Below are positions 24,895 to 29,603 of a stretch of DNA of 64,000 nt, piece after piece. Every line of letters begins with the position of its first letter. The first letter of the stretch is position 1. The stretch covers positions 90,020 through 154,019 of IMG/VR virus record IMGVR_UViG_3300023210_003077. One strand, written 5' to 3'. The position numbers were made by a program, and so were the translations under genes. The notes beneath the pieces were generated by a model, which searched no databases, had not been told where the DNA came from, and saw only the letters and a list, made by a program, of their open reading frames with translations. The DNA is from a virus.

Positions 24895-26877
24895 ATGAAG
24901 AAATTACTATTTTTATTTTTATTAGCAACATCAACATCGTATTCACAGGATACTCTAAAGGTTGACACATCAATGGTGCAAATTGAAGAAGTTACTATAC
25001 AAGGAATTAGAGCTGGATCTAAAACACCAGTCACTCAGAAAACAATCAGTAAAGATGATATAGATGTTATGTATCATACACAAGAATTACCGTTGTTATT
25101 AAACACAACACCAAGTGTAACATCATCAACAGATGGCGGTCACAATATGGGATATACTTACTTTAGATTGAGAGGTATTGACCAAACTAGAATTAATATG
25201 ACACTCGATGGGGTTCCTCTTAATGAACCAGAGGACCAAGGTGTATATTTCTCAAATTACCCAGATTTTACAAACTCAATTAGGTCAATGCAGATACAAC
25301 GTGGTGTTGGTACATCAACAAACGGTGTTTCCTCATATGCTGGTTCTATTAATTTTGAATCACCAACGGGATTAAAGAAAGGAACAGAAGGACAAATTGG
25401 ATATGGATCATTTAATACTTATAGAGTTAGTATTGAAAACTCAACAGGATTACTAAAAAATAAAACAGCCTTTTATACTAGATATTCAAATTACGCGAGT
25501 GATGGATACAAATATAACTCAGGTGGTGAAGGACAATCATTCTTTTTAAGTGGTGGTTATTATGGAGAAAAGGATTTTGTTAAAATAACAGCATTCAATG
25601 GACACACAACTAATGAAATGGCTTGGTTCGCAGTTTCAGAAGATGATATAAAATCAGAACCAAGAACTAACTATAATACTACTAGAGAAAATGACGACTT
25701 TACACAAAGTATGGTTATCTTAAAACACAAACACTTTTTTAACAAGTCAAATTTAACGACTACCGCTTTCTATAATAGATTAGATGGAGATTGGGGATTA
25801 GATTTACTACCACTTGGTGGAGGGGATGATGTTCTTAACTTCAATTTAGGTTCTAACTTCTATGGATTAACCTCTAACTATAACTTAACTGGTAATAAAT
25901 ATAGATTGAATATTGGTGTTAGTGGTAATATGTATGATAGACGACATGCTATGACTGTATTAGCAAACACAGATGAACTATATTCTAATAAAGGACTTAA
26001 AAACGAAGTATCATCATTTGTTAAATTCGGATATGATATAAAGAAGTTTACTCTTTTCGGAGATGCTCAAGTTAGATACGTTGATTTCAAGTATCAAGGT
26101 ACTATGGATATGGCACCATTTGAATGGACATTCTTCAACCCAAAAGGTGGTATAATGTTCACGAAATGTAAACACTATAACTTCTATGCTTCTGTTGGTC
26201 AATCACAAAGAGAACCAACAAGAAATGATATTTTTATGGGAGAAGATGATCCTATTAGTTACATAGATGTTAAACCAGAATCGGTTGTTGATTATGAATT
26301 AGGTACTAATATAACATTAGATAACTTTAAGTTACAAGGTAATCTATACTATATGGATTTCAAAAATGAAATAACATTATTAGGAGCAATTGGTTCAAAT
26401 GGTTTACCGTTAATGACTAATGTTGAAAACTCTTTTAGAAGTGGTATTGAATTAGATATGACTTTAAGTTTATTTAGTAAAAAGAAAATTAACTTATTAT
26501 TAGTTAATACATCATCATACTCTTATAACAGAATTAATGATGATGGGAAAGAATTTAGTCCATTATACACACCTAATTTGATAATTAACCAAGGTGTGGT
26601 GATTAAAGATTCAAAAGATAGAATAAGAGTTGGATTTGATGTGAAGTACCACTCAGAGTCTTATATTGATATGGAGAACACACTCACAACACCAGATTTT
26701 GTGGTATTAAATGCTCAAGTTGATTATAAATTCTATAAACAACACAGTTTAAGTATTAGAGTAAATAACATAACTAATGAAAGTTATTACACTAATGGAT
26801 ACGCAGTTGGTACAGATAGACACTTCTTTGTTAATCCACCATTCAACTTCTTCGCTACAATTAAATTTAAGATTTAA
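24895..26877 (+). CDS. TonB-dependent outer-membrane receptor carried by the phage
   Basis: A 660-residue protein with a clear signal peptide MKKLLFLFLLATSTSYS-Q (1-18), a site form common in Flavobacteriia. A TonB-box/plug region follows: EEVTIQGIRAGSKTPVTQKT (~32-51), then LLLNTTPSVTSSTDGG and YFRLRGIDQTRINMTLDGVPLN (~92-113), then a ~500-residue beta-barrel ending in a terminal aromatic strand (FFATIKFKI). Such receptors import scarce ligands across the outer membrane using TonB energy. The stop codon overlaps the pnuC start (TAATG), so the ligand is probably the one PnuC moves, a nicotinamide riboside-type NAD precursor. A thiamine ligand, as with PnuT operons, is the main alternative. 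Full length and intact. Confidence 0.88.
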   Translation: MKKLLFLFLLATSTSYSQDTLKVDTSMVQIEEVTIQGIRAGSKTPVTQKTISKDDIDVMYHTQELPLLLNTTPSVTSSTDGGHNMGYTYFRLRGIDQTRINMTLDGVPLNEPEDQGVYFSNYPDFTNSIRSMQIQRGVGTSTNGVSSYAGSINFESPTGLKKGTEGQIGYGSFNTYRVSIENSTGLLKNKTAFYTRYSNYASDGYKYNSGGEGQSFFLSGGYYGEKDFVKITAFNGHTTNEMAWFAVSEDDIKSEPRTNYNTTRENDDFTQSMVILKHKHFFNKSNLTTTAFYNRLDGDWGLDLLPLGGGDDVLNFNLGSNFYGLTSNYNLTGNKYRLNIGVSGNMYDRRHAMTVLANTDELYSNKGLKNEVSSFVKFGYDIKKFTLFGDAQVRYVDFKYQGTMDMAPFEWTFFNPKGGIMFTKCKHYNFYASVGQSQREPTRNDIFMGEDDPISYIDVKPESVVDYELGTNITLDNFKLQGNLYYMDFKNEITLLGAIGSNGLPLMTNVENSFRSGIELDMTLSLFSKKKINLLLVNTSSYSYNRINDDGKEFSPLYTPNLIINQGVVIKDSKDRIRVGFDVKYHSESYIDMENTLTTPDFVVLNAQVDYKFYKQHSLSIRVNNITNESYYTNGYAVGTDRHFFVNPPFNFFATIKFKI

Positions 26878-27425
26878 TGGATATTATTGAGGCAGTAGCT
26901 GTTTTATTCACGTTACTAGCTGTTATTCTAACAGTAAAAGATAACATATTATGTTGGCCATTTGGTATCGTAGGAGTTATCTTTTACTCTGTTATCTTTT
27001 ACAACCATAACTTACTTGGTGATTTAGTTTTACAAGGTGTATTTCTAGTCCAATCTATACTAGGTTGGATAAACTGGAGCAAACCAAAAGAAGAATTGGC
27101 TATTAGTTGGTTAAATAAAAAGCAATTAGGATATCTAACAACCAGCACCATTATTCTATACATGACCACGTTTTGTATAACAAGTGAATATGGTGGTAAT
27201 ATGCCATTTCTAGACTCTGCTGTAATGACATTGGGTGTTATGGCTACATTCCTATTAGTGAAGAAGAAAATAGAAGCTTGGATTCTTTGGATTATAAATG
27301 ACATTCTATTAATAGTATTATTCTCATCAAATGGCTTAGACGTATCATCATATGTATATGGTTTATTCTTAATATTAGCATCAATTGGATTATGGAAATG
27401 GATAAAAAGTACAAAAGTAGTTTAG
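26877..27425 (+). CDS. pnuC: PnuC-family nicotinamide riboside transporter
   Basis: A 182-residue integral membrane protein of ~7 predicted segments. PnuC-type landmarks are NILCWPFGIVGVIFY (23-37), GWINW (63-67) and EAWILWIINDILLIVLF in the last third. PnuC carries nicotinamide riboside across the inner membrane by facilitated diffusion, driven by its phosphorylation inside. The next gene, NadR, would supply that kinase. It overlaps the receptor stop by 1 nt and the nadR start by 34 nt, so all three are translationally coupled. The close relative PnuT (thiamine) cannot be excluded from sequence alone. Confidence 0.85.
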   Translation: MDIIEAVAVLFTLLAVILTVKDNILCWPFGIVGVIFYSVIFYNHNLLGDLVLQGVFLVQSILGWINWSKPKEELAISWLNKKQLGYLTTSTIILYMTTFCITSEYGGNMPFLDSAVMTLGVMATFLLVKKKIEAWILWIINDILLIVLFSSNGLDVSSYVYGLFLILASIGLWKWIKSTKVV

Positions 27426-28411
27426 TATTGGGTAAATTCTACGGATTACACACCGGGCACCTTTATTTAATAGACACCGCTTTGGAAAATTCGGAAGTTG
27501 TTCATGTTTTAGCTTGTCATAATCCTACACAAACAATCCCTGGTAAATTAAGAGTAAAATCTTTACGAGAAATATATGAAAGTAACCCAAATGTCATAAT
27601 ACACTCTGTTGATGATAGTGAGATGCCACAATATGAACACGAATGTAAATCACTTGATGAATTTTATTCTTATTGGGTTCCATTTGTTTATAAATTTGTT
27701 GGTAAATTAGATTGTGTATTCACTTCTGAGAATTACGGTGATGATTTTGCTAAATATTTGGGTATAAAACACTATCTAGTTGATAAAGAAAGAAAGAAAT
27801 TTCCTATATCAGGAACTAAAGTAAGAACTAACCCCTTTGATAGTTGGGAATTTATACCGGATGAAATAAAACCCTACTTCGTTAAGAGAATTGTTATTAT
27901 GGGGCCGGAATCTGTTGGGAAATCAACAATGAGTGAAAATTTAGCTAAATACTATAACACAAATTTTGTTGAGGAATATGGCAGAACTGTATTTGAAAGA
28001 AATGGTAATAAAATAGGAATAGAAGACTTTATCCCAATATCTGTTGGTCGACAAGAATTGGAAAATCAAAAAATAAAGACATCCAATAAATTATTATTCT
28101 GTGATACAGAGGATATAACAACATACCTCTTCTCAAAAATGTATTTTCCAAATGGTTATAAAAGTATTGAAAACATATTACTAGATAAAGTATATAAAAA
28201 TAGTAATTATGATTTATACTTACTATTGAAACCTGATTGTGATGGTGTTCAAGACGGAACACGACAGTTTTTAGAAGAAAGGATGGAACATTATAATGTT
28301 ATTAAATCAGAATTGGAAAAGTACAATTGTAATTATATAGAAGTGGGTGGTAATTGGAGAGATAGATTAAGCAAATCTATTGAAATTGTAAATTCACAAT
28401 TTAATATATAA
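27392..28411 (+). CDS. nadR: NadR: NMN adenylyltransferase and nicotinamide riboside kinase
   Basis: A 339-residue bifunctional enzyme. The N-terminal domain has GKFYGLHTGH (14-23, the nucleotidyltransferase H-x-G-H) and ISGTKVR (139-145, the ISxTxxR motif), forming NAD+ from NMN and ATP. The C-terminal domain has a P-loop GPESVGKST (171-179) and a kinase-like core that phosphorylates nicotinamide riboside. No N-terminal helix-turn-helix regulator domain is present, unlike enteric NadR. Two Met codons (27392, 27398) could start it. With PnuC and the receptor it forms a complete uptake-to-NAD route. Confidence 0.88.
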   Translation: MEMDKKYKSSLVLGKFYGLHTGHLYLIDTALENSEVVHVLACHNPTQTIPGKLRVKSLREIYESNPNVIIHSVDDSEMPQYEHECKSLDEFYSYWVPFVYKFVGKLDCVFTSENYGDDFAKYLGIKHYLVDKERKKFPISGTKVRTNPFDSWEFIPDEIKPYFVKRIVIMGPESVGKSTMSENLAKYYNTNFVEEYGRTVFERNGNKIGIEDFIPISVGRQELENQKIKTSNKLLFCDTEDITTYLFSKMYFPNGYKSIENILLDKVYKNSNYDLYLLLKPDCDGVQDGTRQFLEERMEHYNVIKSELEKYNCNYIEVGGNWRDRLSKSIEIVNSQFNI

Positions 28412-28700: not shown

Positions 28701-29603
28701 ATGTTAGAATCAATCGAATTATTCGGGAAAGAAATTAAGCTAATAACTCATAATTGTGCCTTATTTGGAGAGGAGGAGGGAAACGCCATTGAAGAACCTT
28801 ATATAAATCTTTATGTTAGAACTAAATTCTGTAACGCTAAGTGCTCATTCTGTACATATCACTCAGACGCATCCAAATGGAACGGTAAAAAATATAAAGA
28901 AGTCTTACAACATATATCAGATAGAATTAAGATTAGAAAAATAGCCATTTCTGGTGGAGAACCAACTTTATATTGGGATAATTTTCTGGAAATGTCCAAT
29001 GTTGGTGTGGAATATGCACCTGATTGTGAATTATCACTGAATACAGACGGATTTAGATGGGAGAAGTTATTTAACGACCCTATTGCTAAAAGATATGATT
29101 ATATACAACTTAGTCGTCACCACTATGATGATAAGATTAATGATGAGATATTCAAATGCAAAACTCCTACATCAGAAGAGATAAAGGCTATAAGCCATTT
29201 ACAAACACATCCACACCAAGTACAATTCAGATGTAACTTAATAAAGAATTATATAGATACACCAGAAGAAGTATTTAAATATTTAGAATGGGCAAACTCT
29301 GTTGAGATAAATGATATTGGTTTAGTATCTTTAATGCCTATCAATGAATACTCAAAAGAGAATTATATTTATTTTCACATAAAGGAATTAATAGGTGATA
29401 ACTTTTTTTTAACCAAGTCTTGGAAAAGAACGGGTGGTGGATGTGAGTGTTTTAATTATGTCTATACTCCACCAGAAGAAGACTTTAGAAGACCAATGAA
29501 AGTTTATCACAAAAATACATTTAAGCCTTCTGAGATAACGGAAACAATTGTGTTTGATGGTCAAAATGTTCGTTTGGGGTTTGATGGACCAATTATCTAT
29601 TAA
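28701..29603 (+). CDS. Radical SAM enzyme
   Basis: A 300-residue protein with the radical SAM cluster CNAKCSFC (cysteines 44, 48, 51) following YINLYVRTKF, and the SAM-binding SGGEPTLYW (84-92). It resembles small enzymes of the QueE/MoaA type, but lacks the EIFxSxQGEG lead of QueE. Another Cys pair in GGGCEC (~248-253) may hold a second cluster. The substrate cannot be read. It lies downstream of the NAD operon; a possible link is nucleotide or cofactor modification, or a viperin/QueE-type base-modification role. Complete and in frame. Confidence 0.7.
   Translation: MLESIELFGKEIKLITHNCALFGEEEGNAIEEPYINLYVRTKFCNAKCSFCTYHSDASKWNGKKYKEVLQHISDRIKIRKIAISGGEPTLYWDNFLEMSNVGVEYAPDCELSLNTDGFRWEKLFNDPIAKRYDYIQLSRHHYDDKINDEIFKCKTPTSEEIKAISHLQTHPHQVQFRCNLIKNYIDTPEEVFKYLEWANSVEINDIGLVSLMPINEYSKENYIYFHIKELIGDNFFLTKSWKRTGGGCECFNYVYTPPEEDFRRPMKVYHKNTFKPSEITETIVFDGQNVRLGFDGPIIY

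Follow-up and report, generated by a model that had tools for sequence, protein, structure and literature searches.

A three-gene operon for predicted NAD-precursor import, headed by an outer-membrane receptor gene, in a megaphage of Bacteroidota

Vibriophage KVP40 has NadV/NatV salvage of nicotinamide adenine dinucleotide (NAD), and the phage pathway NARP2 consists of NAMPT plus a nicotinamide mononucleotide (NMN) adenylyltransferase. The pair of PnuC and NadR is already known in a jumbo phage, as gp586 and gp587 of Atu_ph07 (PMC6102473), and NARP1 works within the cell, where it restores NAD from the products of its breakdown (PMC12774641). In this study we analysed a 64,000-nucleotide stretch of viral DNA, positions 90,020 to 154,019 of the 154-kb IMG/VR record IMGVR_UViG_3300023210_003077 (hereafter the window), in which genes for PnuC and a NadR-type enzyme directly follow a gene for a TonB-dependent outer-membrane receptor. 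Atu_ph07 and KVP40 also carry a transporter plus NadR, or salvage enzymes, on the phage genome, but without an outer-membrane receptor and in proteobacterial hosts. The genes of NARP1 and NARP2 (PMC12774641, PMC12300627) likewise raise NAD+, whereas the operon of the window would instead import a precursor.

Operons with the same three genes in the same order and with short gaps or overlaps are present in Bacteroidota (Flammeovirga loci L020 and L021, and the metagenome-assembled genome (MAG) contigs L022, L023 and L029), where they are chromosomal, unlike the phage operon; within the aligned set their receptors are 38-58% identical to that of the window. No paper describing this bacterial operon was found in the literature searched. 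The Bacteroidota thiamine operon (receptor, PnuT and thiamine pyrophosphokinase, TPK) shares the architecture and has a receptor of a sister clade, but differs in kinase and ligand. Among phages, the TonB-dependent receptor of LR745206 has been reported as a SusC for carbohydrate uptake, and the 'SusC' of Mar_Mega_1 is, as here, a TonB-dependent receptor in a megaphage (PMC9723777). Our search, thin on subscription journals and bioRxiv preprints, found no paper joining receptor, PnuC, NadR and phage. Thus phage PnuC-NadR pairs and the SusC label of the LR745206 receptor were already known, and what is new is the identity of the receptor, the finding that it is linked to NAD genes and the finding that it recurs in megaphages, the Lak phages included.

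From the evidence given below we consider it highly probable that the locus serves to import a NAD precursor and convert it to NAD, and that a megaphage infecting Bacteroidota acquired it from a bacterial operon of the type found in its hosts; the NAD so made may support replication. The three open reading frames (ORFs), at 24895-28411 on the plus strand, lie exactly where the preliminary description of this DNA had placed them, in the order receptor, PnuC, NadR; the ATG of pnuC shares the final base of the receptor stop codon, and the reading frames of PnuC and NadR overlap by 34 nt. Around the operon the window also encodes a tail sheath, a virion structural protein, DNA polymerase B and a helicase, as identified by Pfam and PHROG profile searches. 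In LR745206 (634,780 bp), which is the nearest complete relative of the window phage, gene order and flanking genes of the operon are kept at 75-86% nucleotide identity (identity 85% for the receptor and 81% for NadR), and a second contig carries the same operon and flanks at 97-99.9% nucleotide identity to the window. A 242-kb contig identical to the window (100%) over 19,980 bases was given little weight, because it may represent the same sample reassembled. Since operon order and flanks recur in LR745206, the locus is neither a chance arrangement nor a chimeric contig. The AT-rich composition and codon use of the operon resemble those of its neighbours, the resemblance being weakest for PnuC (r 0.62), and the ratios of nonsynonymous to synonymous substitution (dN/dS) against LR745206 (0.09 for the receptor, 0.15 for PnuC and 0.11 for NadR) indicate purifying selection on all three genes.

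The features of the operon are collected in Table 1. The Pfam scores of the receptor exceed the cut-offs for both Plug (46.5 bits against 23.9) and the TonB_dep_Rec barrel (93 against 27), and the AlphaFold2 model is a confident plugged barrel with a mean predicted local distance difference test (pLDDT) score of 87.8. Taken together, Pfam and the model give the plug and 22-stranded barrel by which TonB-dependent receptors are recognised. The best PDB matches of the model are PqqU/YncD (PqqU 9c4o, template modelling (TM) score 0.82); the FhuA-T5 pb5 and FhuA-Llp superinfection-exclusion complexes are also among the fold matches. The TonB-box-like column is conserved in most aligned relatives, with part of the box missing in the phage relative L004. 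For PnuC, PF04973 (NMN_transporter) scored 153.5 bits against a cut-off of 27.3 and TIGR01528 88 against 42.45; its AlphaFold2 model (pLDDT 91) has seven helices, and the best and only strong Foldseek match is PnuC 4qtn. NadR matches PHROG 3462 (E 3.8e-79), the solved NadR structures 1lw7 and 8x7f align to it along the full length (E about 1e-43), and both catalytic halves are present with the HxGH, ISGTxxR and P-loop motifs retained as GKFYGLHTGH, ISGTKVR and GPESVGKST. ORFs, Pfam and model thus agree with the earlier claim of a full-length receptor with signal peptide, plug and terminal strand, followed by PnuC and NadR, and the structure prediction then recommended has returned a plugged barrel.

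Table 1. Positions in the window of the operon genes and of the segments of their products.
Feature	Position	Strand	Evidence
TonB-dependent outer-membrane receptor, putative nicotinamide-riboside-type (nadR-linked) family, 660 aa	24895..26877	+	ORF, Pfam, AlphaFold2 model, clade placement
Predicted signal peptide MKKLLFLFLLATSTSYS, cleavage before QD	24895..24945	+	Read by eye; in the model, an N-terminal helix followed by a disordered stretch
TonB-box-like segment IEEVTIQG	24982..25005	+	By eye; between signal peptide and plug
Plug domain	25021..25344	+	Pfam PF07715, residues 43-150
Transmembrane beta-barrel including C-terminal strand	25381..26874	+	Model strands, residues 163-659; Pfam PF00593, residues 203-626
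PnuC, nicotinamide riboside transporter of the inner membrane, 182 aa, seven predicted helices	26877..27425	+	Pfam, TIGRFAM, AlphaFold2/Foldseek
NadR-type bifunctional NMN adenylyltransferase/ribosylnicotinamide kinase, 339 aa	27392..28411	+	phrog_3462; PDB 1lw7, 8x7f full length
NMN adenylyltransferase half, HTGH and ISGTKVR motifs	27413..27871	+	Alignments
Ribosylnicotinamide kinase half, P-loop GPESVGKST	27887..28366	+	Pfam AAA_28, residues 166-325; invariant P-loop residues

The link between this receptor family and NAD genes was examined in bacterial genomes with the receptor family sequence alone, and the 80 best loci were analysed. On the same strand and within 4.5 kb of the receptor, nadR was found in 71 of the 80 loci (median gap 583 nt); a recognisable pnuC was present in 55 and TPK in none. 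Two further receptors from Bacteroidota genomes (L129, L130) adjoin nadR, whereas none of seven thiamine-type receptors from that search does. The receptor tree unites the nadR-linked receptors, all phage copies among them, in one clade with a support (SH-aLRT) of 99, and the thiamine-type receptors in a separate, sister clade with a support of 96. Because its members have nadR and pnuC as neighbours, the former clade is, by genomic association, taken as a NAD-precursor receptor family, and the gene linkage points to a NAD precursor as the probable ligand of this Bacteroidota family. The phylogeny suggested in the preliminary description places the window receptor outside the thiamine clade, in the clade defined by nadR and pnuC neighbours. 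Those bacterial loci that stand closest in the trees (L022, L023) carry the NrtR regulator and NAMPT upstream, with phosphoribosyl pyrophosphate (PRPP) synthase in L022. As to the contents of these loci, a NAD/ADP-ribose cluster stands beside the operon at L022:1923-6804 and L029:4431-6885, in which NrtR, PRPP synthase and NAMPT were recognised by profile, and NADAR, KptA-like, macro-domain and ADP-ribosylglycohydrolase-like ORFs by eye. A contig filed as a 'Thalassovita' MAG (L019) groups with Flammeovirga.

The same linkage is found among phages. Receptor matches were obtained in 24 of 50,697 phage records. LR745206, LR756501-LR756503 and Lak phages account for 19 of them; five short fragments of human-fecal origin, including L016 (MT838261.1), make up the rest and were not counted as phage, L016, the one inspected, appearing bacterial. 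In IMG/VR, 25 contigs (not individually checked for phage genes) carry the receptor, with nadR at most 4.5 kb downstream in 21. The neighbours shared most often among 25 phage loci, taken from the window together with contigs of IMG/VR and LR records, are NadR (22), PnuC (17), PncA (7) and PncB (7), but these counts add no independent support because the set includes most of the 25 IMG/VR contigs. NadE and a NadD-like gene also stand near the receptor in some phage loci; LR756501 has PncB, NadE, receptor, PnuC, NadR and PncA in a single run, and in Lak phages NadR and PnuC follow about 5 kb downstream of the receptor. All nine phage records examined (242-735 kb, plus the 154-kb record of the window) encode exactly one TonB-dependent receptor, always of the nadR-linked family; these nine represent seven distinct phages, because two are Lak and another two belong together as the window phage with a near-identical contig. 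The earlier view that a phage-encoded TonB-dependent receptor is very unusual is accordingly right in that the gene is phage-borne, but the case is no one-off: such receptors recur in many megaphages, and the one of LR745206 had already been published, as SusC.

A single origin of all phage receptor copies was ruled out (approximately unbiased test, p-AU 0.00025), and the operon was therefore captured by phages more than once. The receptor of LR756502 stood apart in a quick tree and was considered as a separate origin; its grouping with the window clade was, however, not rejected (p 0.205), and the NadR and PnuC trees both group the window with LR745206 and LR756502. This joint grouping fits a transfer of the whole operon in one piece. 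Inside a phage clade of the receptor tree also sits L018 (JAJFLM010000305.1), which is filed as a Deltaproteobacteria MAG contig, carries the same three genes and is probably a misbinned phage; it was left unassigned.

Other genes were observed near the operon or elsewhere in these genomes. The 735-kb phage LR756501/LR756503 encodes a TonB protein (LR756501:470223-470957; L142:6224-6958, minus strand; PF03544 78.7 bits, cut-off 24.6), and an 88% identical copy is present in IMGVR_UViG_3300028283_000235 (L149), a contig also carrying the receptor L009. A NAMPT-family gene stands beside an NMNAT-Nudix gene, all on the minus strand, in LR745206 (L143:1835-4481), LR756502 (L144:1623-4082) and a 362-kb IMG/VR contig (L145:2032-4649); the NAMPT of LR745206 (553 aa) is divergent, with 139 bits against a cut-off of 405. 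In LR745206 and LR756502 these NARP2-like pairs lie apart from the operon, and no such pair was found in the 154-kb record of the window. Macro-domain-like ORFs near the receptor (L010:10864-11394, L117:11156-11632; the former a weak DarG match, 41.6 bits against a cut-off of 250) possibly serve ADP-ribose recycling or reversal. Homing-endonuclease-like ORFs directly upstream of nadR in several viral loci (L008:11673-12533, L117:12106-12897) are a possible route of gene movement. Directly after the operon, the window encodes a radical SAM protein (28701-29603), which is kept beside it in L006, L011 and L012 and weakly matches HxsC and viperin (46.8 bits against a cut-off of 180).

If the operon is expressed in infection, the receptor would be exported to the outer membrane and powered by TonB, either that of the host or, in LR756501/LR756503, the phage's own. 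Its predicted ligand is nicotinamide riboside or a closely related compound, for instance NMN or NAD; nicotinamide riboside would then cross the inner membrane through PnuC, and NadR would phosphorylate it to NMN and adenylate NMN to NAD+, by which the precursor would also be trapped in the cell. The added NAD may support phage replication and may offset a host NAD shortage or a NAD-depleting defence. A supply route covering the whole envelope, as first proposed from the window alone, thus gains support from the linkage of the bacterial family and from the viral neighbours, the ligand being deduced. We tentatively extend this to the idea that megaphages of Bacteroidota repeatedly captured envelope-spanning, TonB-energised NAD-precursor uptake, that the largest (735 kb, LR756501/LR756503), which adds TonB, NadE, PncA and PncB, runs a NAD economy of its own, and that imported precursor may override NAD-depleting immunity.

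Several observations weigh against NAD-precursor import. PqqU, the closest solved fold to the receptor, binds pyrroloquinoline quinone (PQQ); the papers found give no measured ligand for any receptor of the nadR-linked clade; some bacterial loci hold receptor and nadR without a detectable PnuC; and a small precursor could also pass through porins, in which case the need for a receptor is not given. PnuC falls outside the PnuT group with a tree support of only 84, and its conserved W and D residues do not discriminate because they are common to both. NadR scored 228 bits on TIGR01526, below the cut-off of 341, although the profile covers residues 10-325 in full length; we therefore name it NadR-type and not a TIGR01526 member. 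The preliminary description had left thiamine specificity possible, and a true thiamine operon of such layout does exist in Bacteroidota, with a receptor clade sister to the nadR-linked one: L016, filed as a bacteriophage, encodes receptor, PnuT and TPK in parallel order, and looks like a bacterial thiamine uptake operon. For the window we rejected this reading, which is hardly credible, because the third gene is nadR, no TPK is present and the receptor stands elsewhere in the tree; PnuC, too, was not grouped with PnuT, a result weak by itself, and its partner is NadR. A siderophore, heme or SusC-type glycan receptor without a NAD link is very improbable as well. The best NCBIfam names for the receptor are siderophore models, and the SusC label of LR745206 is published, but TIGR01783 (E 2.8e-25) gave only 89 bits against a cut-off of 223.5; Pfam and NCBIfam profile searches gave no SusC model match, and no SusD partner was found among the neighbours on either side. 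The one phage protein in BFVD that is named SusC, A0A8D9FQQ5 of a marine phage (about 805 aa; from its entry name, apparently the Mar_Mega_1 protein), is only 12% identical to the window receptor. The siderophore and SusC readings were rejected on these profile cut-offs together with the nadR/pnuC neighbours of the 71 bacterial loci. That a host operon of identical layout, as bacteria possess, was fused to phage DNA in assembly has a negligible probability: the independent contigs, with order and flanks kept in LR745206 and in the second contig, and a composition and codon use like the neighbours, ruled out a chimera and place the operon on genuine megaphage DNA, a doubt raised at the outset.

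Two readings concern the use of the operon. TonB-dependent receptors are common phage adsorption sites, and the receptor might act mainly at the surface, by replacing or masking host receptors or as a decoy, against superinfection, the link to pnuC and nadR being capture history only. The FhuA complexes among the fold matches favour such a role, and operon capture alone would give the linkage without selection for uptake. Against it, purifying selection acts on PnuC and NadR as well, several phages add NAD genes outside the usual bacterial triad (PncA, PncB, NadE, NadD-like), and the same family was captured repeatedly, not the many other host receptor families; we regard it as improbable. The main use may instead be counter-defence, in which NAD+ is refilled after depletion by TIR, SIR2 or similar effectors, the operon being akin to the NARP pathways but based on transport. 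Bacteria are known to defend themselves by depleting NAD, and NARP1 and NARP2 are phage pathways that restore it (PMC12300627, PMC12774641); the NAMPT-family and NMNAT-Nudix pairs in LR745206 and LR756502 make counter-defence plausible. Import requires, however, an extracellular precursor and ATP, and the operon serves plain metabolic supply equally well, so that we hold counter-defence as the main use to be possible but rather unlikely; it is a variant of purpose, compatible with NAD-precursor import.

To our knowledge, the metabolic genes of phages almost always have their effect within the cell; the virus described here is predicted to remodel the outer surface of its host for import of a scarce cofactor precursor, and would thereby bring a vitamin supply of its own. 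That one receptor family, out of dozens in Bacteroidota, was captured repeatedly would mark NAD as limiting when megaphages infect. For a bacterial receptor family that is widespread but has no name, the analysis proposes a likely ligand; it also corrects a published SusC label, and with the operon one could test directly whether imported precursors overcome immunity based on NAD depletion.

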